A stretch of DNA of 64,000 nt from Deltaproteobacteria bacterium (GTDB taxonomy: Bacteria > Desulfobacterota > Desulfuromonadia > Desulfuromonadales > BM103). The notes beneath the pieces were generated by a model. That model saw nothing but the letters and a program-made list of their open reading frames with translations. It ran no database searches and was not told where the DNA came from. Positions 1 to 27,945 of the stretch are shown piece by piece (position 1 is the first letter of the stretch; each line of letters starts with the position of its first letter). The stretch lies in the NCBI GenBank assembly GCA_024279915.1, contig JAJRRB010000061.1:1-64000 (forward strand). Reading direction: 5' to 3'. Made by a program: the position numbers and the translations under genes.

Positions 1-559
1 CGTAATCTTGGAATCCCACCAGGGCCATATTGTTGTAAATGCCGGTCGGGATAGATGTGACGCCGAGTTTAGCTGCGCGCTGCCAATCACTATCAACATG
101 CGCAGCGTAGCTCTGTTTGTCAATGATCGACCGGGCTTTGTCGGGATCAAGGCCGATTGATTCGGCGATTTCCGCCAACCTGTCTGGCAAAGCTATATTG
201 CAGCCGTCAACGTAATAGGCTCGGTAAACCGCCATGTGAAATGCTTCTCCGACCCCTTGTTCCTCGGCCCACTTACCAAGTTCCTGGGCGCGACGGCTGT
301 TGTAGGTGGGGGTGCGCTCGCCAAAGGGCAGATCGAGCTCTGCGGCGCCCTGTTGACATCGCTGCATCATTGCCTCGATGTCGTAGCTACCGGCGAAAAG
401 GTCTTCCAGTGTCTGGCCTTCCTCGGGTGTTTCTGGATGGAGAGGAAAAACACTCCAGCGGATGTTGAGATCAAATTCTTGACGCAGTTTGTCGGTACGC
501 ACGGTACCGAAGTAGCACCAAGGTCAGATGTAATCGAAAAAAAGCTCAAGTGTCTTCAT
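1..559 (-). CDS. DsbA/FrnE-like thiol oxidoreductase, probable selenoprotein (3' end outside window)
   Basis: Read on the minus strand from ATG at 559, the frame is open to the window edge (186 codons) except for one TGA at 526-524, codon 12. That codon falls exactly on the first cysteine of the thioredoxin-fold active site: the protein reads MKTLELFFDYI-(UGA)-PWCYFGTVRTDKL, where FrnE/2-hydroxychromene-2-carboxylate isomerase-type DsbA proteins have CPWC. Further features of the family follow: FPLHPETPEEG near residue 40, a helical insert, and the cis-Pro loop GVTSIPTGIYNN near the window edge. Domain conservation continues undisturbed after the UGA, and a 7-bp hairpin lies 14-32 nt downstream (separate entry), so selenocysteine (UPWC) is the best reading rather than a pseudogene. 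An upstream in-frame stop leaves this ATG as the only plausible start; no strong Shine-Dalgarno sequence is visible. Predicted role: thiol-disulfide or selenol redox chemistry. An annotation program would miss or truncate it. Confidence 0.78.
492..510 (-). promoter_or_regulatory. Candidate bacterial SECIS hairpin
   Basis: On the minus strand, right after the in-frame UGA (526-524), the sequence TCGGTAC-CGTGC-GTACCGA forms a perfect 7-bp stem with a 5-nt loop. The stem begins 14 nt after the UGA, and the loop's G is about 22 nt after it and in the second loop position. That fits the known geometry of bacterial SECIS elements (short stem, G among the first two loop bases, close behind the UGA). 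It lies inside the coding frame, as bacterial SECIS elements do. Confidence 0.65.
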
Positions 560-684
560 TGCTAAAGGTTAGCAGAAGGGGTTGAAAGAGCAATAAAAGG
601 GTAGGCGGACATTTGGGGCCATTTAAAGATCTTGCGGCATCCCAGTGAATGGTGGGGACACACACGGTGTTAAGATCTGTTTGG

Positions 685-2151
685 TCATTTGTTGTGAAGA
701 AGCCTTTGCCGAACCGGCTTCGTCGGAGCCGACGGTGATTCCGGGGCCGTGACTCTCATTGGTTTAGATGTAGCCTCTGACGACGATACTGGCGTCTCAC
801 TGGTTTGCACAAAGGCTGTTAAGTCAGTGAGATACTGAGACATCTGTGGGTAATAGAAGTCAGACCACTGCAGGTTACGTAGCTGATTCAGCAGGTGCAG
901 GGCTGCTTCCTTTTCGCCAATTTCCTGTGCCAATTGTGCCATCTGAAACTTGATGAACGGGTCGTTATGGAAGACATCTGAAGCCAGGCTCAACATACGG
1001 AAAGCTTCATCAGGACGACCTTTCTCGTAAGCCCTATTGCTCAGTTCCTCATATTCAAGGGCATAGAGAGGATCAAGTCTGACTGCTTCGGCAAGATAAT
1101 TGAGGGCTTTGCTGCCCTCTTTGTGCTCAGATGCAGACCGGTAGAGGTTGAACTTGATCCAGGCTTTACTCGGAGCCTCTTTGTCCTGGGCCTCATATAG
1201 TTTGCGTACCTCTTCTTTCTTGAAGAAATTGCTCAGGTAGAGGGTATCACGTTGTCGCTGCCAATTAACTGGCATTGGTTGGTCCAGCCGTGCCGGATCT
1301 TCGATAAGGTAGGCAATGATCTCGCCAAGGAAGCGGACATCAAGGGCGATTTTGCTGTCAAGATGGCCGTAAGAGAAAGTGACCGCCAGCGTCTGCAGGT
1401 GCATCTTCTTCAGGGTTGCCAGGGTGTTAAAAACGATGTCGAGCAGCGGCGTGGCTATTTCGTTTTTGTAAATCGGCTGAAAGTAGCTGAGGTCGATATG
1501 CACAATGACCGGACCCGTTAATCCCTGAAGTAACGGTAGTGCTGCTGCGGAAAAAGCTGTGTCGCGCAGGGCACCGTGAACAACCCTTTCGTCTACGGCA
1601 AGTGATGTGGTCTCTTCTTCGTTGGCAATACGGGCTTGGAGCAGCTGGTCCGTGAACTTTTCTAAGCTCATTTCCTGGGCCGGGTCTCGCAGTGGCAATG
1701 CCCACGCCAACTCTTTAAACCATCCATTGCGAAGAGCAGCATCAACCGCCATCCCAGGAAGGATGAGAGGTGCCGGGTTGCGGTCGGTGGTTGCCATGGC
1801 GAGAGTTTCAGCGTTGGCATTGTTGATCAGGATGGTCGTTTTTTTATGGAAATCCTCTGGAACCGGTGTCAGGTGCGGGTTGTTAGAGAGCAGCAGCAGT
1901 GTGGGCCGCTCCGATGCTCGCCTCCATACGGAAAGAGCTTCAGCTGTGGTCTCGAAACGATAGACGGGCGTCGGTTCATTGAGCAAGTCTGTTGCAATGA
2001 GAGGCTCAAAGACAGGCCTTTCCATTTCGCTTTGATCTTGAACCTGCCTGGCTGGATTAATCAGAGAAGAGTTTTGACGATCTTTGTCCGCGGGAGAGTC
2101 GCAAGCTGTTTGTAGAAGCAATAGTGAGATCAGTAGTATCCAGCGTAGCAT
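685..2151 (-). CDS. Uncharacterised TPR-containing lipoprotein
   Basis: I place the start at ATG 2151, giving 488 residues. It is preceded by GAGGTG at good spacing, and the product then opens with MLRWILLISLLLLQTAC, a textbook lipoprotein signal with lipobox L-Q-T-A-C; the longer reading would bury this. The middle third (about residues 60-290) has no motif I recognise. The C-terminal part (about 300-440) has helical repeats consistent with 3-4 TPRs (YLAEAVRLDPLYALEYEEL, AFRMLSLASDVFHNDPFIKF). The tail is Ser/Thr/Pro/Lys-rich and low complexity. Likely membrane-anchored in the periplasm or outer membrane as a protein-interaction scaffold; the function is unknown. It lies 125 bp upstream of the putative selenoprotein gene on the same strand, so the two could be cotranscribed. 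Confidence 0.7.
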   Translation of the reverse strand: MLRWILLISLLLLQTACDSPADKDRQNSSLINPARQVQDQSEMERPVFEPLIATDLLNEPTPVYRFETTAEALSVWRRASERPTLLLLSNNPHLTPVPEDFHKKTTILINNANAETLAMATTDRNPAPLILPGMAVDAALRNGWFKELAWALPLRDPAQEMSLEKFTDQLLQARIANEEETTSLAVDERVVHGALRDTAFSAAALPLLQGLTGPVIVHIDLSYFQPIYKNEIATPLLDIVFNTLATLKKMHLQTLAVTFSYGHLDSKIALDVRFLGEIIAYLIEDPARLDQPMPVNWQRQRDTLYLSNFFKKEEVRKLYEAQDKEAPSKAWIKFNLYRSASEHKEGSKALNYLAEAVRLDPLYALEYEELSNRAYEKGRPDEAFRMLSLASDVFHNDPFIKFQMAQLAQEIGEKEAALHLLNQLRNLQWSDFYYPQMSQYLTDLTAFVQTSETPVSSSEATSKPMRVTAPESPSAPTKPVRQRLLHNK

Positions 2152-2614: not shown

Positions 2615-4246
2615 TTGTCAGCATCAAAACATAAATCGACAGATCCTTTGGGGGTGTTTTCTCCCGGCGAACAAGTGGCGGCAGGACCGGCATTGATAGC
2701 TGGCTTACGCCGCATCAATCAACCTCTCTATCTCCTGACACAGGGTTGTGACACTCAGGTGATGACCGGCACAGCGGGTCCGCTTCAGAATCTTGACGAA
2801 GGGCAGGTTTTTAATGGTATGGCTCTCCCCTGTGCGCTGGAAAAGCTGGGTGACGCCAGCTTCTGTCGCGACTACGCCATTCGTTATCCCTACGTGGGTG
2901 GGTCCATGGCCAAGGGTATCAGCTCTGTGGCTATGGTCGAGACCTTGGCCCAGGCTGGCATGCTCGGTTTCTTCGGCGCCGCCGGTTTGCTGATTGAAGA
3001 AGTCGAGGCTGCTATTGATCAGTTGGAAAGTTCTTCTGCCGGGCTGACTTACGGTTTTAATCTGATTCACAGCCCCAATGAACCGGAGCTGGAAAATGCT
3101 CTGGTTGATCTTTATTTGCGTCGTGGCATCAAACTGGTGGAAGCTTCAGCGTTCCTTGCTTTGAGCCCTGCCCTGGTACGCTACCGGACTCATGGTATTT
3201 ATCGTGATTCTGCAGGATATATCGTCACCCCGAATCGTATCATCGCAAAGATTTCCCGTGAGGAAGTGGCTGCAAGGTTTTTTGCGCCACCACCGGAGCG
3301 GTTCTTGCAAAAACTCGTTGCTGCGGGAGAGCTGACCGCCGAACAGGCACAGCTGGCTGCCGAGATCCCGATGGCTCAGGATGTGACTGTTGAGTCCGAT
3401 TCGGGTGGCCATACTGACAACCGTCCTGCCATGGCTCTCTTCCCGACGATCAAGGCGCAGAAAAATGTCTGCCAAAAAGAGTATAATTATGCACAGCCTC
3501 TGCGGGTTGGGCTTGGCGGTGGCATTGCCACGCCAGCTTCTGCAGCGGCGGCTTTTGCTCTGGGCGTCGATTATCTCGTGACCGGTACGATTAACCAGGC
3601 CTGTATCGAATCAGGCACCTGTGACGAAGTACGCAAAATGCTCGCGGAAACCCGGCAGGCTGATGTCACCATGGCTCCGTCCGGCGATATGTTCGAGATG
3701 GGCGTAAAAGTCCAGGTAATCAAACGCGGTACCATGTGCTCCATGCGTGCGGCGAAGCTCTACGAGCTCTACCGGGCTCACGGCAGCATTGAAGATCTGC
3801 CTGTCAATGAGCGTCAGAAACTGGAAAAGACGGTGTTTCGTAAAAACCTTGACCAGGTCTGGGAAGAGACGCGCAGCTTTTTCGCTCAGCGTGATCCGCG
3901 TCAGTTGGCCAAGGCTGAGAAGGACCCGAAATATAAAATGGCGCTGGTGTTTCGCTGGTACCTCGGTCAATCACCGGTCTGGGCCAATCGCGGTGAATCG
4001 GATCGAAAACTTGACTATCAAATCTGGTGCGGTCCGGCCATGGGGGCTTTTAACGAATGGGTTAAAGGTTCTGTTCTGGATGCGCCTGAACAACGTAAAA
4101 TCGCCACTGTGGCTATGAATATCCTCTTTGGTGCGGCTGTCTTGATACGGGCCAACCAACTTAAGCTTCAAGGGGTTTGTCTCGATGATGAGACAGCGCT
4201 TTCGACACCCTTGGAAATCGAACAGATCAAGGAGTTTCTCAGTTGA
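2615..4246 (+). CDS. pfaD: PUFA synthase enoyl reductase subunit PfaD
   Basis: A 543-residue member of the 2-nitropropane dioxygenase-like (FMN-dependent TIM barrel) enoyl reductases that serve PUFA synthases. Visible hallmarks are QPLYLLTQGCDTQVMTG at the N-terminus, the MAKGISSVAMVETLAQAGM barrel motif (about residue 95), the ESDSGGHTDNRPA segment (about 263) and GGIATPASAAAAFALGVDYL (about 305), typical of the FMN-phosphate binding region. It would reduce the trans-2-enoyl-ACP intermediates in cycles where full saturation is needed. Start is TTG at 2615, with GGGAG just upstream. It is the first gene of the pfaD-pfaA-pfaC operon, its TGA overlapping the TTG start of pfaA by 4 nt, which implies translational coupling. 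The order ER first, then KS-MAT-ACP, then KS-CLF-AT-DH resembles the three-gene myxobacterial pfa clusters more than the five-gene Shewanella order. Confidence 0.92.
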   Translation: MSASKHKSTDPLGVFSPGEQVAAGPALIAGLRRINQPLYLLTQGCDTQVMTGTAGPLQNLDEGQVFNGMALPCALEKLGDASFCRDYAIRYPYVGGSMAKGISSVAMVETLAQAGMLGFFGAAGLLIEEVEAAIDQLESSSAGLTYGFNLIHSPNEPELENALVDLYLRRGIKLVEASAFLALSPALVRYRTHGIYRDSAGYIVTPNRIIAKISREEVAARFFAPPPERFLQKLVAAGELTAEQAQLAAEIPMAQDVTVESDSGGHTDNRPAMALFPTIKAQKNVCQKEYNYAQPLRVGLGGGIATPASAAAAFALGVDYLVTGTINQACIESGTCDEVRKMLAETRQADVTMAPSGDMFEMGVKVQVIKRGTMCSMRAAKLYELYRAHGSIEDLPVNERQKLEKTVFRKNLDQVWEETRSFFAQRDPRQLAKAEKDPKYKMALVFRWYLGQSPVWANRGESDRKLDYQIWCGPAMGAFNEWVKGSVLDAPEQRKIATVAMNILFGAAVLIRANQLKLQGVCLDDETALSTPLEIEQIKEFLS

Positions 4247-7200
4247 AGAAAAACAGCGGAGAACAGAATCACCAGGCTGCGACAGCAACGCCGTTGGCTA
4301 TTGTCGGTATCGGCTGCCTTTTCCCTCAGGCAGCAGATAAGGGAACGTTCTGGACCAACATCAAGAATGGCACCGATGCGATTATTGAGGTTCCCGAAAC
4401 TCATTGGCGCTCCGACGATTATTTTGATGCGGATCCCAAGACAGCTGACAAGGTATACGCCAAGTATGGCGGTTTCCTCTCACCGGTTGACTTCAATCCG
4501 ATGGAATACGGTGTGCTGCCTAATGCACTGGAGGCGATCGATACTTCGCAACTGCTCGGGTTGGTTGCTGTCGATCAGGCGTTGCAGGATGCTGGTTATA
4601 CGGCTGAGAAGGAATTTGACCGCGATCGCGTCAGCGTCATCATCGGTGTGACCGGAACGCTGGAACTGGTGGTGCCGCTCGGTGCTCGTCTCGGTCATCC
4701 GCGCTGGAAAGAAGCTCTGAAAGATGCCGGTATCGCCGATGCGATTGCCGAAGATGTCATGCAGCGCATCAGTGACTCGTATGTCCCCTGGCAGGAGAAC
4801 TCCTTCCCCGGTCTGCTCGGCAACGTGGTTGCCGGACGGATCAGCAAACATTTTGATTTCGGTGGCACCAACTGTGTCGTTGACGCCGCTTGTGGCAGTT
4901 CCTTGAGTGCCCTCAACCTGGCGGCTATGGAATTGGCTGCCGGCAAGTCCGACATGGTGATCACCGGCGGAATTGACACTTTTAACGACATCTTTATGTA
5001 CACCTGTTTCAGCAAGACCCCGGCTCTCTCTCCTTCCGGCCATGCCAAGCCATTTGCTGACAATGCTGACGGTACTACTCTGGGCGAAGGCCTGGGAATT
5101 GTCGTCATCAAGCGCCTGGCCGATGCCGAGCGTGATGGTGACAAGATCTATGCAGTCGTCAAAGGGATCGGTGCCTCGAGCGATGGTCGTGGTTCGGCGA
5201 TTTACGAGCCGAGTGCTGCCGGCCAGCAGAAAGCGCTGTTGCGTGCCTACGAGCAGGGCGGTGTTGATCCACAGACTATTGAATTGATTGAAGCTCACGG
5301 TACCGGTACCAAGGTCGGTGATGCCGTCGAAGTCACCGCACTAAAGGACGTCTTCGGTGAAGCTGATTCGCCCTGGTGTGCGATCGGTTCGATCAAATCA
5401 CAGATCGGTCATACCAAGGCTGCCGCCGGTTCTGCCGGTCTGATCAAGGCGGCTATGGCGCTTTATAACAAGACCCTGCCGCCGACTATCAAGGTCGAGA
5501 AACCACAGGAAGCCGTGACCTCGGCGACCTCGCCATTCTACGTTAATACCGAAGCACGGCCCTGGATCCCCCGCGGTGATCATCCGCGTCGAGCCGGAGT
5601 CAGTGCGCTTGGCTTTGGTGGCAGTAATTTCCATTGCCTGCTTGAGGAATACCAGCCGCTTAAAGCTGCTGCCGATTGGCAAGGTGATGTGCAGATCGTT
5701 GCTTTCAGTGCCGCCGATGAGAGCGGTCTGGAATCCGCATTGCAAAACTTTCCGACAGACGCAGCCTGGAACGACCTGCGCCTGGCCGCCGATCAGAGCC
5801 GTAGTAGTTTTGATGCCCAGCAACCTTGCCGATTGGTGATGGTTCTGGAAAAGGACAGCTCCAAAATCGCCGCCCAGATGAAGGGCGCTCTGGCCATGTT
5901 GAGCAGCAAACGTGACCAGAGTTCGTGGAGTACTCCCGACGGGACCTTTTTTGTCAAAGGTGATGTTGCCGGCAAACTGGCGATGCTCTTTCCCGGTCAG
6001 GGGGCCCAATATCCTGGCATGCTCAAGGATCTGGCGATCCAGTTCCCGCAGTTCCTCGACTCCTTCACAGCCGCAGATCGTGCCTTTTTGAACAACACTG
6101 GCGGCGAGGCAGGCCGTCTGGCTGAACTCGTCTATCCCCGTCCCAGCTTTGATCAAACCAGTAAAGATCAGGATAACGCGAAGCTGCAGGCGACCGACGT
6201 TGCTCAACCTGCTCTCGGTGCTGTCAGCCTGGGCGCCCGCGACGTGCTTGCCAGCTTCGGTGTGACTGCCGAGGCTTATGCCGGCCACAGCTACGGTGAG
6301 CTGACCGCACTTTGCTCCGGTGGTTATTTTGATGTTGATGCTTTGCATGCGTTGTCGCGCCTGCGTGGCGAACTGATGGCTGCCGGCGAAGGTGACCGTG
6401 GTTCTATGCTGGCAGTGTCCGCGCCCCTAGACCAGGTCGAAACGTTCCTTAAGAATTCCGGCCTGAAGCTGGTGCTGGCCAATCGCAATACTCCTGAGCA
6501 GGGTGTCCTCTCCGGAGCAACCGCTGAGATCGAAAAAGCGGCGAAGTTGCTCGATGAACAAGGCCTGCGCTACAAGCAACTTTCTGTCGCTGCGGCCTTC
6601 CATAGTGAACTGGTCGCCGATGCCAGCGGCCCGTTTGGTGAGCGCCTGCAAGCTATTAAATTCAGTAAGCCAACCGCCAGCGTGTTTGCCAACACCACCG
6701 GCAGCGCTTACCCCGAGACGGCTAAAAAAGCTCGTGAAATCCTCACTGCTCAATTGGCTTGCCCGGTCGACTTTGTTGCTGAAATTGAAGCCATGTACGC
6801 AGCTGGTATGCGCACCTTCATCGAGGTTGGCCCCGGAGCCCGTTTGACCGGCATGGTCAAAGCGATTCTCGGTGAACGCGAATACCAGGCAATTGCTGTC
6901 GATGCTTCCAATGGCAAGCGTTCGGGAATCAATGATCTGGCCCGTGTCCTGGCCCAGTTGACCGTACTCGGTTACCCGGTTGAACTGGCTTGCTGGGATG
7001 AAGGCTATGCCGCGACGCGCAAGCCGATGGCAGGCAAAAAGCCCGGCATGACAATTCCTTTGACCGGCGCCAACTATTTCAAGCGGCCAAAGAAACGGCC
7101 GCCGGTGCCGCAACAAACGGCAGTGGCTGTAGCTGTCGTTCCGGCTGCTTCGCAAACAGCACCGACCCAGGGGGCAACTGCTGCACAGGTTCCTTCCGCC

Positions 7201-10200
7201 CCGGCACCAATGGCAAACATTGCAGACTCCGGTTCCCTGCAAGCAGCGCTGCAGATTACCCGGCAGAGCATGCAGGCCTTGCAGAATCTGCAGGAGCAGA
7301 CTTCGCGTCTGCATCAGCAGTTTCTCTCCGGGCAGGAAGCGGCCACCCATTCCTTCCTCAATCTGGTTGAACAACAGAACCGTCTGTTGCAGGGCCAACC
7401 GTTGACCGCTGGTATTGCACCGGTTGTTCAGACACCTGTAGCGGCCGTCGCACCGATTCAACCGCTGGCAGCATCGGTCGCGCAAGCTGTCCCGCCGGTT
7501 GCACCTGCCGCTCCGGTTGCGACCCCTGCCGTTGATAGCAGCCAGGTTGCCACTGTGTTGTTGGCCGTGATCGCCGAAAAAACCGGTTACCCGGAAGAGA
7601 TGCTGGAACTGGAGATGACTCTCGATGCCGATCTCGGTATCGATTCGATCAAACGCGTAGAAATCCTCTCCGCGCTGCAGGAGAAGTTGCCGGAAGCACC
7701 GGCGGTCAAGCCGGAAGATCTCGGTACCCTGCAAACTCTCGGTCAGATTATTGACCATTTGAGTGCTGGTATGGCCGCTGCGCCAGCCACGGTCTCTGCT
7801 GCACCGGTAGCCGCTGCCACTGTTGACAGCAGTCAGGTTGCCAGTGTGCTCCTGTCTGTCATTGCCGAAAAAACCGGTTACCCGGAAGAGATGCTCGAAC
7901 TGGAGATGACTCTCGATGCCGATCTCGGTATCGATTCGATCAAGCGCGTCGAAATCCTTTCCGCGCTGCAGGAGAAGTTGCCGGAAGCTCCGGCAGTTAA
8001 GCCGGAAGATCTCGGCACCCTGCAGACTCTCGGTCAGATCATCGACCACTTAAGTGCCGGTATGGCACCCGCACCAGCCGCTCAAGTTGCTGCGCCGCTT
8101 GCGGCACCCGCGATTGACAGCAGCCGGATCTCCAGTGTGCTGCTCGAAGTGATCGCCGAGAAAACCGGCTATCCGATGGAAATGCTGGAACTGGAGATGG
8201 CGCTCGATACTGATCTCGGCATCGATTCTATCAAGCGCGTCGAAATCCTCTCCGCGTTGCAGGAGAAACTCCCCGAGGCCCCGGCGGTCAAGCCGGAAGA
8301 CCTTGGCGTATTGCAGACCCTCGGTCAGATTGTCGACCACTTGAGCGCCGGTGTGGTTAGCGCAGGCATGGCCAGCGCAGTCCCGGTAGCTCAGACGGCC
8401 GCAGCGCCAGCCGTTGATAGCGATCGGGTTTCAAGTGGGTTGCTTGAAGTGATCGCCGAGAAGACCGGTTATCCAATTGAGATGCTCGAGATGGAGATGG
8501 CGCTCGACACCGATCTCGGTATCGATTCGATCACACGTGTGGAAATCCTCTCTGCATTACAGGAAAAGTTACCGGAAGCTCCGGCGGTTAAACCGGAAGA
8601 CTTGGGTGTTTTACAAACCCTTGGCCAGATCGTTGACCATCTTGCTGCTGCTGGTAGCAAGAGTGTTGCACCAGTAGCAGTTGTCGCTGCACCCAGTCCG
8701 TTTGACCGTGATGCTGTGGCGGCCACCTTGCTGGAGGTGATTGCTGGCAAGACTGGTTACCCGGTCGAGATGCTTGAGCTGGAGATGGCACTTGATACCG
8801 ATCTCGGTATCGATTCGATCAAACGCGTCGAAATTCTCTCTGCCCTGCAAGATAAACTGCCGGGAGCCCCGGCGATTAAACCGGAACATCTTGGTACCTT
8901 GCAGACCGTTGGTCATATCGTCGATTTCCTGGCCAGTGTTTCTGGTGCTGCTGAGCCGATGACGAAATCTGCAGAGCCACTTGAACTGCCATCGGTCGGC
9001 AGTGGTGTCGAGCGTAAAGTCCTCAAGTCAATTCCCTTGCCAACACAGGATCGTGACTCGCTCAACCTGCCAAAAGGATCTCTTGTCTGGGTCAGTGACG
9101 ATGGCTCTGAGTTGACCTCTGCCATCTGTAAGCAGTTGGCAGCACAGAATCTGGCTGCTGAAAAAGTCAACCTCACCCAGCTTGACGGCCTGGTTCCGGC
9201 AGAAAATCTCGCCGGACTGATTCTGCTCGCCCCGCAAGCTGGAGCCGACGATCTTTTTATCCAGAATGCTTTCCGCCTGATGCAGTTGGCGGGCCCGATG
9301 CTTAACGTCTCTGCCGATAAGACTGGGGCGGTTATGGCCACGGTGTCACGTCTGAATGGCGCTTTTGGTATGGCGGCTGGTGGCGCGATTACAGATGCCC
9401 TTTCGGGCGGTCTTGCCGGCTTGGTAAAGACTGCCGGGCATGAGTGGCCAGACGTTGCCTGTAAGGCTTTCGACCTGTCTGCAGATCTGACTAATCTGAA
9501 TAAAACGGCTGAAATGCTGGTTGCCGAGCTGCTCGTTGACGGTGCTCAGGAAGTTGGATTTACAAACGATGGTCTCTATACCCTCAAACTGGTCGAAGAA
9601 TCACTCTCCGGTGAGCCGCTTGATTCACCCGTCAGTTATGGTGACGTGGTCGTGGTCAGTGGCGGCGCCCGCGGTGTGACTGCCGAAGTTGCCATTGCCC
9701 TGGCGGCTTCAAGTCGGGCAACCCTGCTGCTGCTCGGTCGCAGTGAAGCTCCACAAACGGAACCGACCTGGCTGGAAGGCCTGAGCAGTGAAGCAGAGAT
9801 CAAAAAAGCTATAATCGCTAATGCTGATAGCCCACTCAAACCGAAAGACGTGGGCCGCAAATGCCAGGAGATCTTTGGTAACCGTGAAATCCAAGATAGT
9901 TTGCGACGCATCAAAGCAGCGGGTGGTCAGGCTCTCTATCGTTCCGTTGATCTGCGTAATGGAGATGCGGTTGCGGCTGTCATTAAGGATATTCGTAATG
10001 AATATGGTCCGATCAAGGGCTTGATTCATGGCGCTGGAGTCCTGGCGGATCGTCTGATCAAGGACAAGACGGTTGAGCAGTTTGAGCAGGTCTATAGCAC
10101 CAAGATCGTCGGTTTGCGTAGTCTGCTGACAGCACTTACTGAAGACGAATTAAAATTTATGGTGATGTTCTCCTCATCGACTGGTCGTTACGGTCGCACC

Positions 10201-11370
10201 GGCCAGGTTGATTATGCCGTGGCTAATGAGATTCTCAATAAGATTGCCCAGCAAGAGGCCGGACAGCGTTCCGACTGCCGCGTGCTCTCCTTGAACTGGG
10301 GACCGTGGGACGGCGGCATGGTCACGCCGGCGCTGAAAAAAGTTTTTGCTGAAGAAGGGGTTGCAGTTATCGACCTCAAAGCTGGCGCTGATTACCTGAT
10401 CGAGGAGATCGCCACGCCACCGGGTGGACCGGTAGAGCTGGTGATTCTCGGTGGTCGGGAAGAAGCTGCGAGCGCCAGTCCGGCTCAGGAGCATGACAAT
10501 ATCTACGTTTCCAAAGCTTTTGACCTGGATATTTCTATTGAACAGTACCCGTTCCTCAAGTCTCATGTCATCGACGGCAAAGCGGTTTTGCCGATGGCGG
10601 TGATGATTGAATGGATGGCGCATGGCGCGATCCACAATAATCCGGGCTTGCGTTTCCATGGTTTCAATGACCTGCGGGTTTTAAAGGGCGTCACTCTGGG
10701 ACAGGGGGAGACGCACACCTTGCAGGTGATGACTGGCAAGTCCTTCAAGAGCGATGGGGTGCATGTCGTGCCGGTAGAGCTTTCCGGGATCACGGCCGGT
10801 GGTCAGCAGTTTGTTCATTCCCGTGCCCGAGTTGTTCTGGCGGCTAAGCTGCCGGGAGGGAAACAGGCTACGGAGCGTTTGGAACTGCAATCGTACAGTC
10901 GTCCTGCTGAAGAGGTCTATCAGCCTGATCGGCTTTTCCATGGGCCTGATTTCCATGGTATTCGTGAGGTGATCGGTTGTTCCCCTGACGGCATTGCTTC
11001 CATAGTTCGCACGGCACCCTTGCCGACCGAATGGATCAAACAGCCGTTGCGCAACTCCTGGCTGGCCGATCCACTGGCACTCGACAGTAGCTTCCAGATG
11101 ATGATCCTCTGGAGCTTCGAACGCTACAAAGCCGGATCCTTACCGGTTTTTGCCGGTCGCTATCGCCAGTATCAGGACAAATTCCCTGAAACCGGTGTTG
11201 AGATTCGAATTCGCGTCACCAGCCAAAGTGATAGCCAGGCGACTGCGGAAATCGATTTTGTCGACCCGAGCAGTGGTACCTTGATCGCCCGTATTGAAGA
11301 TTATCAATGTGTGATTAATGCTTCGCTGAATGCGAGCTTCCAACGCAATAAACTGCAGGGAGTCGCCTGA
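4243..11370 (+). CDS. pfaA: PUFA synthase subunit PfaA (KS-MAT-5xACP-KR-DH)
   Basis: A 2375-residue iterative polyketide-type synthase. Domains in order: ketosynthase (about 15-460) with active Cys217 in DAACGSSLS, then EAHGTGT and GHTKAAAG histidine motifs; malonyl-CoA acyltransferase (about 580-890) with PGQGAQYPGM and Ser683 in GHSYGE; a Pro/Ala- and Gln-rich linker; five ACPs (about 1100-1565) with phosphopantetheine serines at about 1135, 1232, 1329, 1429 and 1525; ketoreductase (about 1795-2060) with SGGARGVTAEVA and the catalytic YAVANE; and a C-terminal hot-dog dehydratase-like region (about 2080-2370, HVIDGKAVLPM). TTG start 4243, with AAGGAG 8 nt upstream, overlaps the pfaD stop. 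It elongates malonyl units on its own ACPs, which the PPTase at 38.2 kb probably activates. The dehydratase histidine reads as DxxxHVIDGKxxLPM-like and is probably functional, but this is inferred. Confidence 0.95.
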   Translation: MKKNSGEQNHQAATATPLAIVGIGCLFPQAADKGTFWTNIKNGTDAIIEVPETHWRSDDYFDADPKTADKVYAKYGGFLSPVDFNPMEYGVLPNALEAIDTSQLLGLVAVDQALQDAGYTAEKEFDRDRVSVIIGVTGTLELVVPLGARLGHPRWKEALKDAGIADAIAEDVMQRISDSYVPWQENSFPGLLGNVVAGRISKHFDFGGTNCVVDAACGSSLSALNLAAMELAAGKSDMVITGGIDTFNDIFMYTCFSKTPALSPSGHAKPFADNADGTTLGEGLGIVVIKRLADAERDGDKIYAVVKGIGASSDGRGSAIYEPSAAGQQKALLRAYEQGGVDPQTIELIEAHGTGTKVGDAVEVTALKDVFGEADSPWCAIGSIKSQIGHTKAAAGSAGLIKAAMALYNKTLPPTIKVEKPQEAVTSATSPFYVNTEARPWIPRGDHPRRAGVSALGFGGSNFHCLLEEYQPLKAAADWQGDVQIVAFSAADESGLESALQNFPTDAAWNDLRLAADQSRSSFDAQQPCRLVMVLEKDSSKIAAQMKGALAMLSSKRDQSSWSTPDGTFFVKGDVAGKLAMLFPGQGAQYPGMLKDLAIQFPQFLDSFTAADRAFLNNTGGEAGRLAELVYPRPSFDQTSKDQDNAKLQATDVAQPALGAVSLGARDVLASFGVTAEAYAGHSYGELTALCSGGYFDVDALHALSRLRGELMAAGEGDRGSMLAVSAPLDQVETFLKNSGLKLVLANRNTPEQGVLSGATAEIEKAAKLLDEQGLRYKQLSVAAAFHSELVADASGPFGERLQAIKFSKPTASVFANTTGSAYPETAKKAREILTAQLACPVDFVAEIEAMYAAGMRTFIEVGPGARLTGMVKAILGEREYQAIAVDASNGKRSGINDLARVLAQLTVLGYPVELACWDEGYAATRKPMAGKKPGMTIPLTGANYFKRPKKRPPVPQQTAVAVAVVPAASQTAPTQGATAAQVPSAPAPMANIADSGSLQAALQITRQSMQALQNLQEQTSRLHQQFLSGQEAATHSFLNLVEQQNRLLQGQPLTAGIAPVVQTPVAAVAPIQPLAASVAQAVPPVAPAAPVATPAVDSSQVATVLLAVIAEKTGYPEEMLELEMTLDADLGIDSIKRVEILSALQEKLPEAPAVKPEDLGTLQTLGQIIDHLSAGMAAAPATVSAAPVAAATVDSSQVASVLLSVIAEKTGYPEEMLELEMTLDADLGIDSIKRVEILSALQEKLPEAPAVKPEDLGTLQTLGQIIDHLSAGMAPAPAAQVAAPLAAPAIDSSRISSVLLEVIAEKTGYPMEMLELEMALDTDLGIDSIKRVEILSALQEKLPEAPAVKPEDLGVLQTLGQIVDHLSAGVVSAGMASAVPVAQTAAAPAVDSDRVSSGLLEVIAEKTGYPIEMLEMEMALDTDLGIDSITRVEILSALQEKLPEAPAVKPEDLGVLQTLGQIVDHLAAAGSKSVAPVAVVAAPSPFDRDAVAATLLEVIAGKTGYPVEMLELEMALDTDLGIDSIKRVEILSALQDKLPGAPAIKPEHLGTLQTVGHIVDFLASVSGAAEPMTKSAEPLELPSVGSGVERKVLKSIPLPTQDRDSLNLPKGSLVWVSDDGSELTSAICKQLAAQNLAAEKVNLTQLDGLVPAENLAGLILLAPQAGADDLFIQNAFRLMQLAGPMLNVSADKTGAVMATVSRLNGAFGMAAGGAITDALSGGLAGLVKTAGHEWPDVACKAFDLSADLTNLNKTAEMLVAELLVDGAQEVGFTNDGLYTLKLVEESLSGEPLDSPVSYGDVVVVSGGARGVTAEVAIALAASSRATLLLLGRSEAPQTEPTWLEGLSSEAEIKKAIIANADSPLKPKDVGRKCQEIFGNREIQDSLRRIKAAGGQALYRSVDLRNGDAVAAVIKDIRNEYGPIKGLIHGAGVLADRLIKDKTVEQFEQVYSTKIVGLRSLLTALTEDELKFMVMFSSSTGRYGRTGQVDYAVANEILNKIAQQEAGQRSDCRVLSLNWGPWDGGMVTPALKKVFAEEGVAVIDLKAGADYLIEEIATPPGGPVELVILGGREEAASASPAQEHDNIYVSKAFDLDISIEQYPFLKSHVIDGKAVLPMAVMIEWMAHGAIHNNPGLRFHGFNDLRVLKGVTLGQGETHTLQVMTGKSFKSDGVHVVPVELSGITAGGQQFVHSRARVVLAAKLPGGKQATERLELQSYSRPAEEVYQPDRLFHGPDFHGIREVIGCSPDGIASIVRTAPLPTEWIKQPLRNSWLADPLALDSSFQMMILWSFERYKAGSLPVFAGRYRQYQDKFPETGVEIRIRVTSQSDSQATAEIDFVDPSSGTLIARIEDYQCVINASLNASFQRNKLQGVA
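7525..8935 (+). repeat. Five tandem ACP modules in pfaA
   Basis: Five nearly identical ACP units repeat at 291, 291, 300 and 288 bp between the DSI serine codons (7645, 7936, 8227, 8527, 8815). Linkers are Ala/Pro/Val-rich. Four carry DLGIDSIKR; the fourth carries DLGIDSITR. The DNA is strongly similar between units 1 and 2, so copy number may vary by recombination and short-read assembly may miscount it. In PUFA synthases the number of ACPs is known to affect yield rather than product type. Confidence 0.93.
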
Positions 11371-11372
11371 GA

Positions 11373-14300
11373 ATGAAGCACGGTAAATCTGTTGCAATTG
11401 TCGGGGTCGGCGGCATATTTCCTATGTCACCGACCCTGGACCGTTTCTGGGAAACGATTACCGGCAACGTCGATACTTCGCGGCAACCGCCGCAGGGACG
11501 TTGGCTGCTTGACCCTGATGAGGTCTTTGATCCAGAGATCGGTGCGCCCGACAAGGTCTATTCGAAAAAAGCCTGTTTCATTGATGATGAAAGCAATACC
11601 TCATCAATCGCCGGTCTTGATATCGACGCCGATTTTCTAAGCGGTCTCGATCCGATGTATCGTCTGTTGCTGCGTACCGGTCATCAGGCGTTCAGCGATG
11701 GCCGGATTGATGAGCTTGATCGTGAACGGATCGGCGTCATCATCGGTAATCTGGCTCTGCCCAGTGAACACTCCTCGACCATAGCCCGGGATTATCTCGG
11801 CCGCACTTTTACAGAAAAACTTCTCGACATGGCAGATCATCCAGAGCTGCCGACTGTCGATCCCATAAATCGATATGTGGCTGGTTTACCCGCCGGCCTG
11901 CTGGCCAAAGCTCTCGGTCTCGGTGGCACCTGCTACACCCTTAACGCCGCCTGTGCTTCATCACTCTACGCTATCAAACTGGCGACAGATGAATTACTGG
12001 CCGGACGGGCTGACGCCATGCTGACTGGTGGTCTGGCACGTCCTGATTCGCTTTATACCCAGATGGGCTTCTCGCAACTGCACGCTCTTTCCCCTTCCGG
12101 AACCTGTTCTCCTTTCGATGCCAAGGGCGATGGCCTGGTGGTCGGTGAGGGCAGTGGAATGTTCCTGCTCAAGCGCACTGAGGATGCCGTGCGTGCCGGA
12201 GATCACATCTATGCCGTAATTTGCGGCATCGGCCTTTCCAATGATATCGGTGGTAGTCTGCTGGCACCTGCCTCGGAAGGCCAATTGCGATCCATGCGTT
12301 CCGCCTACCAGCAAGCTGGTTGGTCGCCGTCTGACGTAGATATGATCGAGTGCCACGCCACGGGAACTCCGGTGGGTGATGTGGTTGAATTCGCCAGTCT
12401 CAAGACTCTCTGGGGTGAAGATGGCTGGAAGTCGGGACAGTGCGTGATCGGTTCGGTGAAATCGAATATCGGTCATCTGCTGACCGCTGCCGGATCCGCC
12501 GCTCTGATGAAGACCTTGTTGGCGATGAAAGAACGTACTTTGCCACCGACTGCTAATTTTGTGCAGCCAGCCAAAGGCGTCGATCTGGACTCGAGCCCGT
12601 TTCGTGTCCTGCAACAATCGAAACCGTGGAAGCCGCGCAAGAAAGGCCAACCACGACGGGCTGCCGTGAGCGCTTTTGGTTTCGGTGGCATTAATGCCCA
12701 CCTCTTGATCGAGGAATGGGTGCCGAAGAAACCGACGAAAAGTTCTGTGGCTTATCCAGCTTCATTCAAGCGAAAAAGTCAGCCGGTGGCGATTGTCGGC
12801 ATGGGTGCTCATCTTGGGCCCTGGGATTCGCTTGCCGCATTGCGCAGCCGTTTCCTCGGTAGTGACGCTGTTGTGAACCCAGAGAATCCCAGCCGTTGGT
12901 GGGGGGCAGAAGAGAGCCGGTGGTTGCAGAAAAAAGGCCTCAAAAAGTCAGACTTTAAAGGCTTTTACGTCAACGAAGCGCAAACGGCACCAGGTGCATT
13001 TCGCATCCCACCGAAAGAGGTTGAGGAGATGTTGCCCCGCCAGCTCCTGATGCTCAAGGTTGCCGAAGAAGCGCTGCTGGATGCCGGTATCAAACAGGAT
13101 GATCTGCTCTTTACCGGAGTCTTTATCGGTACCGGGCTGGATCTCAATGCCACCAACTTCAGCTTCCGCTGGGGGCTGCAGAAATTAGCCCGGCAGTGGG
13201 CAAAACAGTTTGGCCGTGAGCTTACCGAAGCGGAACTCAACGAATGGATTGCCGCACTGCGCGAATCGGCCGGACCGGCCCTGAATGCCAACCGGGTCAT
13301 GGGTGCCCTCGGTAGTATCGTTGCCAGCCGGGTCGCCAAAGAGTTCAAAGTCGGTGGCCCGAGCTTCACCCTGTCCAGTGAAGAAAATTCCGGATTGAGG
13401 GCACTCGAAGTCGGAGTACGCGCTCTTCAGGAAGGCTCTATTAACCGTGCCATTGTCGGCGCTGCCGATATGGCTGGCGATTTGCGTGCGGTGCTCGGCA
13501 GACAGGCGGCACAACCCTTCTCCCCAAAAGGTGTTACCCGGCCCTTTGACAAAAACGCCGATGGTGCTGTGATTGGAGAAGGGGCGGCGGCGGTCATCCT
13601 CAAACGCCTCGATGATGCTAAACAGGATGGTGACCATATTTACGCCATCATCAAGGGTGTCGGTACAGCAACCGGAGGGTCGATCGAAGCGCAAAGCCCT
13701 GACAGTCATGCCTATACTCTCTCTGTTGAACGAGCCAGTCTTGAGGCTGGTGCCGCTCCTGGATCGGTCAGTTACCTCGAAACTCATGGTAGTGGACTTG
13801 CTGAAGAGGATGAGCTTGAGGCGAACGCTCTGGGTGCTTTCTTTGGTGCCAAAGAGACGCAGAACCCGTGCTACATCGGTAGTGCCAAGGCTGATGTAGG
13901 CCATACTGGTGCTGTTGCCGGCTTGGCTTCGCTGATCAAGACATCGCTCTGCCTGGAAGAACAGATCCTGCCACCGCTACGTAACCTGCAGTCGCTACGC
14001 TATGACTGGGTGCGCGGCAAACGCAGTTTTGTTGCTCCCGAGGCGGCTCAATTCTGGCTGCGCAACCGGGCCGAAGGACCGCGACGGGCTCTGGTCGGTG
14101 GGATTGGCAATGACGGGACCTGCTCACACATCCTGCTAGAAGGTGTTGAGGATAAGAGAATGAAGGCCCGATCTGCCTCTGTTGAGCGTCCTCTTGGTGC
14201 ACTCGACGAGGGACTTTCCGCTCTCGAAGCCGACAACGTAGAAGGTTTGATCAAAAAGGTTGCCCAACTGCAGGACTTTGCTGCTATGGCACCTGATGGC

Positions 14301-17300
14301 GGCATTGAGCAGTTGGCATTGCAGTGGTTTCGAGACACCGGTCTTGATCAGAGCAAGCAGCTCTGTATGGCCATGGTAGCGTCGAGCCGCGCGGAACTGC
14401 TCGATCAACTTGAACACGCTTTGCTTGAATTGCGTAACAACCCAGATAACTCTTTGGGCGGCAATGGAACAATGTTGTCGGCGGGCATCCGTGACCGGCT
14501 TTTCTTTGCCCCTGAGCCGCTGGCGCCGCAGGGTAAGATCGCATTTATCTTCCCGGGTTCTGGTAACCATTTTGCCGGGATGGGGCGTGAGCTCTCCGCT
14601 CGTTGGCCAGCTATCTATAGTCAGCAGGATACTGCTAGCCAGTTCCTGGCCCGCCAATTTCTGCCGGAACATTTCTGGAAAAAAGAGTTAGCCGAAAGGT
14701 TGCATGACAACCACAATGCCCTGGTGATCGGCCAGGTGGCCCTCGGTACAGCGGTCAGCGATCTGGTGCGCAGCTTTGGCGTCGAGCCCGGGGTAGTGAG
14801 TGGCTACAGCCTTGGCGAATCAGCCGGTCTCTTTTCTTTGGGGGCCTGGAAAGATCGTGATGGTATGTCGCAGCGGCTCAGCGACTCACCTCTCTTTATC
14901 GAAGAACTCGCTGGCGAATGCAAAGCCGCACGTAAGGTGTGGGGTTTGAAAAAAGGCGAAAAGGTCGATTGGGTGCTCGGTCTTATCGATGTTCCTGCAG
15001 CAGAAGTGAAGCATGCGTTGGTCGACAAAGATAAAGCTTACCTGTTAATTGTCAATACCCACCGGGAGTGCGTGATCGGCGGCGATCGTCAACAAGTTGA
15101 AGCCTTGGCTCGCGAAGTCAAAGGCCATTTCTTCCCCTTGCGCGGTGTGACGACGGTTCATTGTGAAGTCACCGAGCCGGTGGCAAAAGCGTACCGTGAG
15201 TTGCACCTCTTTCCGGTAACGGCACCGAGAGACATCACCTTCTACAATTGTGCCCTCGGCGAGAGCTATAAAGTCACCACAGACAGCGCCGCTGATGTAA
15301 TCCTCGGTCAGGCGTTGAAGACCATTGATTACACCAAGGTCATCGAGCAGGCTTATGCCGATGGGGCGCGGATTTTTCTTGAGATGGGTCCTGGGAATTC
15401 ATGCAGTCGCATGATTGGCAGCATTCTGGAAGGCAAGCCGCATATGACCAGGGCTGCCTGCTATCCTGGTCAAAAAGCGACGTCGCTGATTCTGCGCTTG
15501 TTGGCCAACTGCCTGGCGGAACGGGTGCCAGTTGATCTTTCTGCGCTCTATCCAGAATCTATCGAAATTGCCGAGAGGCCATCCGGGCCGCGTATTCATA
15601 CTGTTATCGGTGGCGCGGCGTTTGTTCCGGCTCCCCTTCCGTTAAAAGAAAAAATTGAAGAAATACCGGAACGCGGAACGTCAGGGAAGTGGGACAGTCC
15701 TCATGCGAGGACAGTCCCTGTGCTGAGCGTGGATGTGGGAGCGATTGCTGATCCTCTGGTGGCACAGATGGCTGATACCGCAGCGTTGAATGCCAAGACC
15801 CATGAAGCCTATCTTAAGTTTGCCAGTACTATGGAGAAGACACTTACTGAGAACATCAATCTGCAGATGTCGTTGTTGCAGCAGATGGTGGTTAATGGTG
15901 AGTCCATAGGGACTGTCCCCGGTTTTCAGGGGGCTGTCCCCAGTTTTGACGGGCTTGGGACAGTCCCCTTAACCCCGGGGACAGTCCCTGACCAACCCCC
16001 AGCCTACGACCGTGAAATGTGCATGGAGTTTGCCATTGGCTCGATTGCCAAAGTGCTCGGAACGGAATTTGCCGAAATCGATACTTATCCGACTCGTGTG
16101 CGACTGCCCGATGAACCTTTGATGCTGGTTGACCGTATTATGACGGTCGAGGGTGAACCGCGCTCCATGACCAGCGGTCGGGTCGTTACCGAACATGACG
16201 TCACCGCTGATCGGTGGTATATCGATGGCGGTCGTATGCCGACCTGTATTGCTGTCGAGGCTGGGCAGGCCGATCTCTTTCTCTCTGGCTACCTGGGGAT
16301 TGATTTTATCAGCAAGGGTAAAGCGGTCTATCGCCTGCTCGATGCTGTGGTGACTTTCCATCGTGGCTTGCCCGTGCCCGGTGATGTGGTTCGTTACGAT
16401 ATCAAAATTGACCATTTCTTCCGTCAGGATCAGACCTACCTCTTCCGTTTCAATTTCGAAGGGACCGTCAATGGTGAGCCGCTGCTGTCGATGCAGAAGG
16501 GTGTCGCTGGTTTCTTTACCGAGCAGGAGCTGGCCGCCGGCAAGGGCATTATCCATACCAAACTCGATTTGATGCCGCAGCCTGGCGTCAAACCTGATGA
16601 TTGGCGTGATCTGGTCCCTTTGGCAGTAGAATCCTACGATGAAAATCAGGTTAACGCTGTCTATGCTGGTGATCTTGGTGCTGCTTTTGGTGAACTCTTT
16701 GCTGACTTGAAACTGACAAAACCCTATACCTTGCCAGGCGGTTCCCTGAAGCTGGTTGACCGCGTGATTGAACTTGATCCCCAAGGCGGTCGTTATGGTC
16801 TCGGCCAGATTCGCGCTGAAATGGATATCAGTCCGGAAGACTGGTTCTTGACCTGTCACTTCTGTGATGACAACGTCATGCCTGGTACCCTGATGTATGA
16901 GTGTTGCATGCACACCCTGCGTATCTACCTGTTGCGCATGGGCTGGATCGGTGAGGATGGCACTACCTGGTGCGAACCGATCCCCGGTGTTGACAGTGGC
17001 CTGAAATGCCGTGGTCAGGTCACCGAGACGACCAAAACCGTGACTTATCAGGTCAGTATCAAAGAACTCGGCTATGGCCCGGAGCCTTTTGCGATTGTTG
17101 ATGCGCTGATGTTTGCTGATGGTAAGGCGATTGTTGAGATCCCGGATATGTCGGTTCGCCTCTCCGGGTTGACTCGCGAAAAGGTTGAGGGTTTATGGGG
17201 GACTGTCCCTGGCGTGCTCTATAATTACGAAAAAATTCTGGCTTTTTCGACGGGGAATCCTTCCGAAGCGTTTGGTGAACCGTACAAAATCTTTGATCAG

Positions 17301-18191
17301 GAACGTAAGATTGCCCGCCTGCCGGGGCCGCCGTTCCAATTCCTCGACCGCATTGTTGATGTCAGCGGCGAGCCGTTCAAGCTGGTTGAGGGCGCAACCT
17401 GTGAAGCAGAGTACGATGTGCCACAGGACGCCTGGTACTTCAAGTCTGGAAGACAGCCGGAGATGCCCTTCAGTGTCCTGCTTGAGATCGGCCTGCAGCC
17501 CTGTGGCTGGCTGGCGGCCTACCTCGGCTCAGCGTTAACCAGTGAAGTCGATCTCAAGTTCCGTAACTTGGATGGCAATGCCGTACAGCATTGCCCGGTC
17601 ACCCCGGAATCCGGAACCCTGACGACCCGGGTCAAAATCACCCGCATCGCCAACAGCGGTGGTATGATTATCCAGAGCTACGATTTCGAAATTAGCGATC
17701 GGCAGGGTCCGGTCTATACCGGCGATACTGTATTTGGTTTCTTCTCGGCAGAGTCTTTGGCTCAGCAGGTTGGAGTTCGTGACGCCAAGCCTTATCAGCC
17801 GACTACTGATGAGATTGCTCGTGCTGAGCAGTTCGATTATCCGTCTGAAGCTCCATTCCCGGAACCGAAGATGCGCATGATCGACCGCATTGAACTCTTT
17901 GTTGCTGATGGCGGCCCGAAAGGCCTCGGGTTTATTCGAGGCAGTAAAGTCGTTGATCCTGATGAGTGGTTCTTCAAAGCCCACTTTTATCAGGATCCGG
18001 TCTGCCCCGGTTCTCTTGGACTTGAGTCTTTTCTGCAACTACTCAAGGTCGCCGCGGTGAAGCGCTGGGGTGGCGACTCCCAAAGTGTGCTGGAGACAAT
18101 CGCGATCGGTGAGAAACACAGCTGGAATTACCGTGGACAGATCATCCCGAGGAACGACCAGGTTTGGTCGAAGCGGTGGTCACGGCAATAG
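11373..18191 (+). CDS. pfaC: Fused PUFA synthase subunit PfaB/PfaC (KS-CLF-AT-DH-DH), 3' end frameshifted
   Basis: The open frame gives 2272 residues. Domains: ketosynthase (about 5-440) with Cys194 in NAACASSLY and GHLLTAAGSA; a chain-length-factor KS (about 465-930) in which the Cys is replaced (TLSSEENSG); an acyltransferase (about 1045-1370) with FPGSGNHFAGMG and GYSLGES; then two FabA-type double hot-dog dehydratases. Each has an N half (PLMLVDRI about 1580; FQFLDRI about 1990) and a catalytic C half (HFCDDNVMPGTLM about 1830; HFYQDPVCPGSLG about 2207). In marine gamma-proteobacteria the AT is usually separate (PfaB); here it is inside PfaC, as in myxobacterial Pfa3. The frame ends at TAG 18191 with non-family residues (WSKRWSRQ), while the expected ending continues in the -1 frame to 18289. 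A single missing base near 18165 explains this. It follows pfaA by 2 nt. Short GGGGACAGTCCC-type repeats are embedded in two linkers. Confidence 0.93.
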   Translation: MKHGKSVAIVGVGGIFPMSPTLDRFWETITGNVDTSRQPPQGRWLLDPDEVFDPEIGAPDKVYSKKACFIDDESNTSSIAGLDIDADFLSGLDPMYRLLLRTGHQAFSDGRIDELDRERIGVIIGNLALPSEHSSTIARDYLGRTFTEKLLDMADHPELPTVDPINRYVAGLPAGLLAKALGLGGTCYTLNAACASSLYAIKLATDELLAGRADAMLTGGLARPDSLYTQMGFSQLHALSPSGTCSPFDAKGDGLVVGEGSGMFLLKRTEDAVRAGDHIYAVICGIGLSNDIGGSLLAPASEGQLRSMRSAYQQAGWSPSDVDMIECHATGTPVGDVVEFASLKTLWGEDGWKSGQCVIGSVKSNIGHLLTAAGSAALMKTLLAMKERTLPPTANFVQPAKGVDLDSSPFRVLQQSKPWKPRKKGQPRRAAVSAFGFGGINAHLLIEEWVPKKPTKSSVAYPASFKRKSQPVAIVGMGAHLGPWDSLAALRSRFLGSDAVVNPENPSRWWGAEESRWLQKKGLKKSDFKGFYVNEAQTAPGAFRIPPKEVEEMLPRQLLMLKVAEEALLDAGIKQDDLLFTGVFIGTGLDLNATNFSFRWGLQKLARQWAKQFGRELTEAELNEWIAALRESAGPALNANRVMGALGSIVASRVAKEFKVGGPSFTLSSEENSGLRALEVGVRALQEGSINRAIVGAADMAGDLRAVLGRQAAQPFSPKGVTRPFDKNADGAVIGEGAAAVILKRLDDAKQDGDHIYAIIKGVGTATGGSIEAQSPDSHAYTLSVERASLEAGAAPGSVSYLETHGSGLAEEDELEANALGAFFGAKETQNPCYIGSAKADVGHTGAVAGLASLIKTSLCLEEQILPPLRNLQSLRYDWVRGKRSFVAPEAAQFWLRNRAEGPRRALVGGIGNDGTCSHILLEGVEDKRMKARSASVERPLGALDEGLSALEADNVEGLIKKVAQLQDFAAMAPDGGIEQLALQWFRDTGLDQSKQLCMAMVASSRAELLDQLEHALLELRNNPDNSLGGNGTMLSAGIRDRLFFAPEPLAPQGKIAFIFPGSGNHFAGMGRELSARWPAIYSQQDTASQFLARQFLPEHFWKKELAERLHDNHNALVIGQVALGTAVSDLVRSFGVEPGVVSGYSLGESAGLFSLGAWKDRDGMSQRLSDSPLFIEELAGECKAARKVWGLKKGEKVDWVLGLIDVPAAEVKHALVDKDKAYLLIVNTHRECVIGGDRQQVEALAREVKGHFFPLRGVTTVHCEVTEPVAKAYRELHLFPVTAPRDITFYNCALGESYKVTTDSAADVILGQALKTIDYTKVIEQAYADGARIFLEMGPGNSCSRMIGSILEGKPHMTRAACYPGQKATSLILRLLANCLAERVPVDLSALYPESIEIAERPSGPRIHTVIGGAAFVPAPLPLKEKIEEIPERGTSGKWDSPHARTVPVLSVDVGAIADPLVAQMADTAALNAKTHEAYLKFASTMEKTLTENINLQMSLLQQMVVNGESIGTVPGFQGAVPSFDGLGTVPLTPGTVPDQPPAYDREMCMEFAIGSIAKVLGTEFAEIDTYPTRVRLPDEPLMLVDRIMTVEGEPRSMTSGRVVTEHDVTADRWYIDGGRMPTCIAVEAGQADLFLSGYLGIDFISKGKAVYRLLDAVVTFHRGLPVPGDVVRYDIKIDHFFRQDQTYLFRFNFEGTVNGEPLLSMQKGVAGFFTEQELAAGKGIIHTKLDLMPQPGVKPDDWRDLVPLAVESYDENQVNAVYAGDLGAAFGELFADLKLTKPYTLPGGSLKLVDRVIELDPQGGRYGLGQIRAEMDISPEDWFLTCHFCDDNVMPGTLMYECCMHTLRIYLLRMGWIGEDGTTWCEPIPGVDSGLKCRGQVTETTKTVTYQVSIKELGYGPEPFAIVDALMFADGKAIVEIPDMSVRLSGLTREKVEGLWGTVPGVLYNYEKILAFSTGNPSEAFGEPYKIFDQERKIARLPGPPFQFLDRIVDVSGEPFKLVEGATCEAEYDVPQDAWYFKSGRQPEMPFSVLLEIGLQPCGWLAAYLGSALTSEVDLKFRNLDGNAVQHCPVTPESGTLTTRVKITRIANSGGMIIQSYDFEISDRQGPVYTGDTVFGFFSAESLAQQVGVRDAKPYQPTTDEIARAEQFDYPSEAPFPEPKMRMIDRIELFVADGGPKGLGFIRGSKVVDPDEWFFKAHFYQDPVCPGSLGLESFLQLLKVAAVKRWGGDSQSVLETIAIGEKHSWNYRGQIIPRNDQVWSKRWSRQ
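15690..15990. repeat. Cluster of six GGGGACWGTCCCC-type palindromic repeats inside pfaC
   Basis: Near-identical palindromic 10-13-mers occur at 15691-15699, 15709-15718, 15909-15920, 15929-15941, 15957-15968 and 15977-15988. A seventh lies at 17197-17209. All are within the pfaC reading frame, in the linkers AT-to-DH1 and DH1-to-DH2, where they encode repeated (G)TVP or AVP peptides. They do not disturb the frame or the neighbouring domains. Confidence 0.85.
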
Positions 18192-24112: not shown

Positions 24113-24154
24113 CATTGCTCTTGATTGCTTAATTTCGTCTGGTATATTCCTCCC

Positions 24155-27748: not shown

Positions 27749-27771
27749 GTTTTGCTTTTAAGGTCAAAGGC

Positions 27772-27878
27772 AAATTAGCCGCTGATAGAATCTGATCAGA
27801 TCTGATAAAGGCAAGAGGAAATTAGACGAGGTTTACGGTTACCATCAGATTTTATCAGATGTTATCCGCGGCCAATTG
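27772..27878. repeat. Long imperfect inverted repeat between oleA and oleB
   Basis: The arms are about 27772-27808 and 27843-27878. The left arm reads aaattagccgctgatagaat and continues with tctgatcagatctgat; the right arm is its near-perfect complement (inverted: caattggccgcggataacat, then ctgataaaatctgat). The loop is about 34 nt. In RNA this would be a strong hairpin between two genes of one pathway. It may be a REP/MITE-like element or a processing/attenuation structure; it has no T-run typical of a terminator. Confidence 0.75.
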
Positions 27879-27945
27879 TTTGTGGCTTTTAGAGAACCAT
27901 ATCCAGCTTTTCACCCAAGTCCTTAAATATCCAAATGAGTAAATA

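Follow-up and report, generated by a model that had tools for sequence, protein, structure and literature searches.

Selenoproteins of the DsbA type are already on record. In the accessible text of the Sargasso Sea study of 2005, a DsbA-like selenoprotein with a UxxC site is represented by nine sequences and assigned to COG2761 (PMC1088965). In the corresponding part of a 2006 survey, Anaeromyxobacter dehalogenans, Desulfovibrio desulfuricans, and Desulfotomaculum reducens are credited with DsbA-like selenoproteins; no such entry is given for three Geobacter species or for Desulfuromonas acetoxidans (PMC1794560). Reviews of 2022 and 2026, as far as their accessible sections go, retain the family with PF01323 and UxxC (PMC9312934, PMC13188914), and it has been entered as DsbA-like form 1 (PMC13188914). 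Among Cys-containing relatives, FrnE of Deinococcus radiodurans (DR_0659; 5cnw, 5co3, and 5xwh) is described, in the available part of one article, as a cytoplasmic disulfide reductase whose C-terminal CxxxxC pair is thought to aid regeneration of the active site; the same source notes that this pair is missing from some accepted FrnE proteins, and FrnE of Streptomyces roseofulvus, from the frenolicin polyketide cluster, is described there without it (PMC8945050).

Our literature search for COG2761 together with selenocysteine (Sec) returned the 2005 paper only. Further searches returned no paper on DsbA-family Sec proteins in Geobacter, none on the selenoproteome of Desulfuromonadales, and no title on bacterial FrnE bearing on the present clade. 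COG2761 is taken here to be the FrnE family.

The gene described below does not represent a new kind of protein, since a DsbA-like UxxC selenoprotein under COG2761 was already reported in 2005, as far as the accessible portion of that paper goes. It adds a well-supported Sec gene to the known DsbA-like selenoprotein family, with which it shares PF01323 and a UxxC site with Sec in the first position, a likeness drawn from the descriptions in the accessible parts of the papers and not from sequence alignment. What is new is how widely the Sec form occurs in the sampled phylum, the nesting of Cys copies among Sec forms, a predicted leaderless transcript, and the finding that no NCBIfam model matched (four proteins tried).

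A FrnE-type gene cut by a contig end

The window (the whole stretch of 64,000 nucleotides analyzed here) is the beginning of contig C55, the edge of which cuts a minus-strand gene (Table 1). As originally predicted, its frame of 186 codons contains a single in-frame TGA, located at codon 12 in place of the first Cys of a CPWC motif, and the N-terminal translation reads MKTLELFFDYI-U-PWCYFGTVRTD. The frame lacks a 3' stop only because the contig runs out within the gene. The missing end comes from contig C79 of the same assembly, which opens with 434 overlapping bases (431 identical) and continues through the final 11 codons (VNYRRLITSAD-stop), giving a total of 197 codons; the UGA codon lies outside this overlap. 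No further copy of the gene was found in its own genome, the third match of the genome search having an E-value of 0.18. Matches were obtained in 32 plasmid records, all below 60% identity, and among the 10 matches listed the identity was 29-34%. No NCBIfam model reached its cut-off with any of the four proteins tried, so automatic annotation probably drops or truncates the gene, likely in many Desulfobacterota-type genomes.

Table 1. Positions of the gene and its elements in window coordinates
Feature	Position	Strand	Details
FrnE/DsbA-like selenoprotein gene	2..559	-	Codons 1-186 of 197; PF01323 match; remainder from C79
Predicted bacterial SECIS hairpin, 7-bp stem	492..510	-	5' arm 510..504, loop 503..499 CGUGC, 3' arm 498..492
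Cys15, second residue of the UxxC pair	515..517	-	Invariant column in 17-sequence alignment A1
In-frame UGA, Sec codon 12	524..526	-	First position of U-P-W-C; TGA in 83/90 distinct sequences
Extended -10-like element TGC-TAACCT	566..574	-	Ends 6 nt before the ATG; comparison of relatives
-35-like element TTGCTC	588..593	-	16-nt spacer; comparison of relatives

With TGA translated as Cys, the protein matches the Pfam family DSBA (PF01323) with an E-value of 2.1e-31. A profile of 17 members (alignment A1) was searched against solved structures, and the best match was D. radiodurans FrnE (E 6.6e-32), followed by SCO1869 (E 2.3e-22) and, more weakly, the HCCA isomerase 2imd (E 8.9e-10). The predicted structure (mean pLDDT 92) has the same fold as D. 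radiodurans FrnE (TM 0.91-0.92), which carries CPWC where the present protein carries UPWC. These results bear out the FrnE/DsbA-like identity proposed originally. They also weigh on the possibility that the gene encodes an enzyme of the same superfamily resembling kappa-GST or HCCA isomerase and not a disulfide oxidoreductase: the profile and fold matches to 2imd (TM 0.78 for the latter) favor it, but both matches to FrnE are better, and the alignment shows no variation in the UxxC pair, so we regard such an enzyme as improbable.

In the 17 sequences, positions 12-15 and Pro171 are invariant (Sec shown as C), and in the predicted structure Sec12 stands immediately N-terminal to a helix spanning residues 13-29. 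By eye, the N-terminus does not look like a signal peptide. We consider it very likely that the gene encodes a cytoplasmic FrnE-type thiol-disulfide oxidoreductase in which Sec, by predicted decoding of UGA, replaces the first, attacking Cys. In CxxC oxidoreductases, the first Cys attacks and the second resolves. Sec sits at the first position, which corrects the original wording of Sec in the resolving pair.

In the mechanism that we propose, SelB would deliver Sec-tRNA at the SECIS just past the UGA, which would be read as Sec. Attack of the Sec12 selenolate on a substrate disulfide would then give a mixed selenenylsulfide, to be resolved by Cys15, with Pro171, judging from the fold, as the probable cis-Pro opposite the UxxC pair. 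The C-terminal CxxxxC pair of D. radiodurans FrnE (PMC8945050, in its available part) is absent from the 197-codon protein and from the alignment, so recycling would presumably proceed through another reductant, such as a thioredoxin system.

Conservation of the UGA codon and the hairpin, and the Sec machinery

Homologues from named genomes carry mostly TGA and not TGC at this codon: TGA was present in 20 of 23, and Cys in L027, L029, and L031. A search of 277 genomes of the class (E 1e-20) found the gene in 75 of them, with 83 matching rows. TGA was present in 76 rows, and one of the other seven is the C79 fragment, which lacks the codon; reading the codon in the remaining 82 gave 76 TGA and 6 Cys. 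In a search of 395 genomes of the phylum (some of the class included; E 1e-40), 63 genomes had a match, and TGA occurred in 56 of 65 rows, two of the other nine not spanning the codon. Reading the codon in 25 phylum rows, seven of them deliberately fetched for having no TGA, gave 18 TGA and 7 Cys. After removal of duplicates, including L063 (the window itself), the set of 90 distinct sequences, window included, comprised 83 with TGA, five with TGC, and two with TGT.

Judged by these codons, Sec is the usual state of the subfamily in the sampled genomes of the phylum. The original prediction, which called a FrnE-type protein with Sec at least uncommon, overstated its rarity: Sec proteins of COG2761 were reported in 2005 (PMC1088965, accessible part), and in the genomes sampled here the gene as a rule has the Sec form. 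TGA was also observed at the same codon in the distant homologues L149-L154 and L131, in which the sites are UPYC (L149) or UPFC; the Sec form would thus reach beyond the UPWC group.

Downstream of the UGA, dN was 0.12-0.13 and dS 1.3-1.4 in comparisons with L009 and L058 (dN/dS of about 0.09), and the window copy shows no disabling mutation. Purifying selection on this part of the gene is strong.

In bacterial SECIS elements, the loop lies about 16-37 nt past the UGA and contains a G. The hairpin in the window, likewise predicted from the outset, has this geometry: its stem begins 13 nt and its 5-nt loop 20 nt past the UGA, and the loop has a G. Among 82 Sec sequences of the PWCY type (L131 and L130, with a PFCW motif, being excluded from the SECIS statistics), 72 have the complete stem of seven pairs, and the mean is 6.87 pairs. 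Synonymous recoding left a mean of only 4.56 pairs (sd 0.09, 1000 rounds) and a full stem in 1.8% of sequences (maximum 7.3%, 300 rounds), and displacing the 3' arm by 1, 2, or 3 bases left 1.1 to 3.3 pairs. Compensatory changes (numbered with the U of UGA as 0) were found at pair 18-32, where G-C is replaced by A-U (14 sequences) or U-A (3), at pair 21-29 (A-U to G-C, 15), and at pair 20-30 (U-A to C-G, 3). The loop with its closing pair reads CCGTGCG in 66 of 82 sequences and CCGGGCG in six. Six Cys sequences have a mean of 4.67 pairs, versus 3.12 (sd 0.38) when these six are recoded synonymously. Given the conservation of the homologous codon and of the stem, the latter well in excess of what the amino acids require, the combination of UGA and hairpin is not a matter of chance, and on its pattern of conservation the hairpin is assigned as a bacterial SECIS.

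The genes for Sec synthesis and decoding, a check proposed with the original prediction, are all present in the genome: selA (604.8 bits), selB (390.9 bits), and selD (362.6 bits) adjoin one another at C17:39105-43492, and a tRNA-Sec with anticodon TCA scored 70.9 bits. A second tRNA-Sec match, on C41, scored 48.2 bits against a cut-off of 47. SelD itself has one in-frame TGA. Across the class, a selA match was found in 67 of the 75 genomes carrying the gene, versus 236 of 277 overall, a co-occurrence that discriminates little because selA is present in most of these genomes anyway.

The eight carriers with no selA match are G193, G199, G073, G063, G053, G058, G060, and G217. Among them, selB exceeded its cut-off in G193 and G199 and is partial at a contig start in G073; tRNA-Sec exceeded its cut-off in G193, G073, and G063. 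In G053, G058, G060, and G217, neither selB nor tRNA-Sec was found above the cut-off; completeness is 63-81% for the first three and 96% for G217. We read the absence of machinery in these carriers as assembly gaps, which for G217 is an assumption. In G217, the gene (L077) has the UGA and a complete SECIS stem, although no selA match was found there and neither selB nor tRNA-Sec exceeded its cut-off.

This genome is the nearest thing to support for taking the UGA as a genuine stop or a site of regulatory read-through after an 11-residue peptide, or as a codon for another residue, for which there is nothing direct. Such readings are highly improbable, as the UGA aligns with the active-site Cys of the homologues L027, L029, L073, and L127, the hairpin has bacterial SECIS geometry, and selA, selB, selD, and tRNA-Sec are all in the genome of the window. 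A pseudogene or sequencing error, that is, a recent change of TGC or TGT to TGA in an ordinary FrnE gene, might be suspected from the position at a contig end and the three differences from C79 in 434 bases, but the recurrence of TGA at this codon in both class and phylum, the compensatory changes in the SECIS, and a dN/dS of about 0.09 past the UGA leave it almost no room. We therefore reject the pseudogene, error, and stop readings on the conserved UGA, the SECIS, and dN/dS. The findings that the original prediction named as refuting it, a genome lacking selB and selC or close relatives with TGC beside a disabled copy, were looked for and did not appear. On all computed evidence, this is a real selenoprotein gene.

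Cys-containing copies in the tree

A quick maximum-likelihood tree was built from 112 sequences (98 Sec and 14 Cys), with long outgroup branches; Cys relatives are under-sampled in it because the search queries were mostly Sec forms. The Sec/Cys label requires at least nine changes on this tree, five of which well-supported branches make unavoidable. The window sequence belongs to a well-supported group of 81 members (77 Sec and 4 Cys), in which the four Cys members (L027, L029, L073, and L127) are nested among Sec members. Most simply, Sec would be the older state in this group.

The nested Cys copies retain the hairpin to different degrees. L073, the tree partner of which is the Sec form L080, has six of the seven SECIS pairs together with the common loop, and L027 has all seven pairs with an altered loop; five and four pairs are left in L029 and L127, respectively. 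From these remnants, L073 and L027 look like candidate natural losses of Sec to Cys.

Predicted transcript start and surroundings of the gene

The sole start codon of the gene is an ATG located 11 codons ahead of the UGA, and no Shine-Dalgarno-like motif was found upstream of it. Comparison of relatives revealed promoter-like elements directly before this ATG (Table 1); a stricter standard promoter scan of window positions 1-900 reported no promoter. In 41 of the 112 sequences, a start codon precedes the UGA or Cys codon by exactly 11 codons. The pattern TTGnnn-N16-18-TAnnnT, ending 6 to 8 nt before the start, was found in 24 of these 41, window included, versus a mean of 0.2 and a maximum of 2 of 41 in shuffled upstream regions, a control that is somewhat optimistic because the pattern was chosen after viewing eight upstream regions. 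When the distance to the start was divided into 5-nt bins, the element ended 5-9 nt before the start in 24 sequences, and the other bins up to 39 nt held 0 to 7.

All 24 loci bearing the element belong to the window's own order, which accounts for 33 loci in the class search. The element is missing from the other nine: L078, L085, L090, and L096 have a Shine-Dalgarno-like motif instead, and L014, L088, L091, L095, and L110 have neither. Over the whole set of 112, the element occurs without a Shine-Dalgarno-like motif in 23 sequences, all with the extended TGn, the motif alone in 71, and neither in 17; L058 has both, with the motif ahead of another start. Such a promoter precedes an ATG in 1 of the 35 other long frames of the window. 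A Shine-Dalgarno-like motif lies before some start in 21 of the 35, so its absence alone is not rare in the window.

An extended -10 element ending 6-8 nt before the ATG would place the transcription start at or beside the start codon. It is thus fairly probable, on this upstream pattern, that in the window's order the selenoprotein is made from a leaderless mRNA with no Shine-Dalgarno sequence and with the UGA about 33 nt from the 5' end. If true, this mRNA would offer a simple system for studying how early in translation SelB and SECIS act. A literature search, conducted mostly by title and abstract and with subscription papers mostly outside its scope, found no leaderless bacterial selenoprotein mRNA; the results listed for leaderless together with Geobacter included nothing on the present clade.

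For the gene neighborhood, frames of at least 90 codons were collected in the flanks of the 112 loci, the flanks being of unequal length. Clusters of neighbor genes never extended beyond 6 of the 112 loci, and antisense artefacts account for some of them. We propose no partner gene, nor do we take the polyketide-type genes adjoining the selenoprotein gene as a link to FrnE. Plus-strand frames at 2615-18191 are large and synthase-like, of 543, 2375, and 2272 aa; the first contains an inserted helical domain of FabD type and the second has repeated carrier-like modules, and together they resemble a cluster of the PUFA-synthase type. Four consecutive plus-strand frames lie at 26705-31525. In the last two, the ones scanned, an AMP-binding enzyme and a 3-beta-HSD family protein were recognized, and the gene order resembles that of an ole (olefin) cluster. 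Between these regions, at 20427-26548 on the plus strand, an Eco57I-type methylase is encoded close to a helicase and a TOTE conflict-system primase, possibly a defence island.
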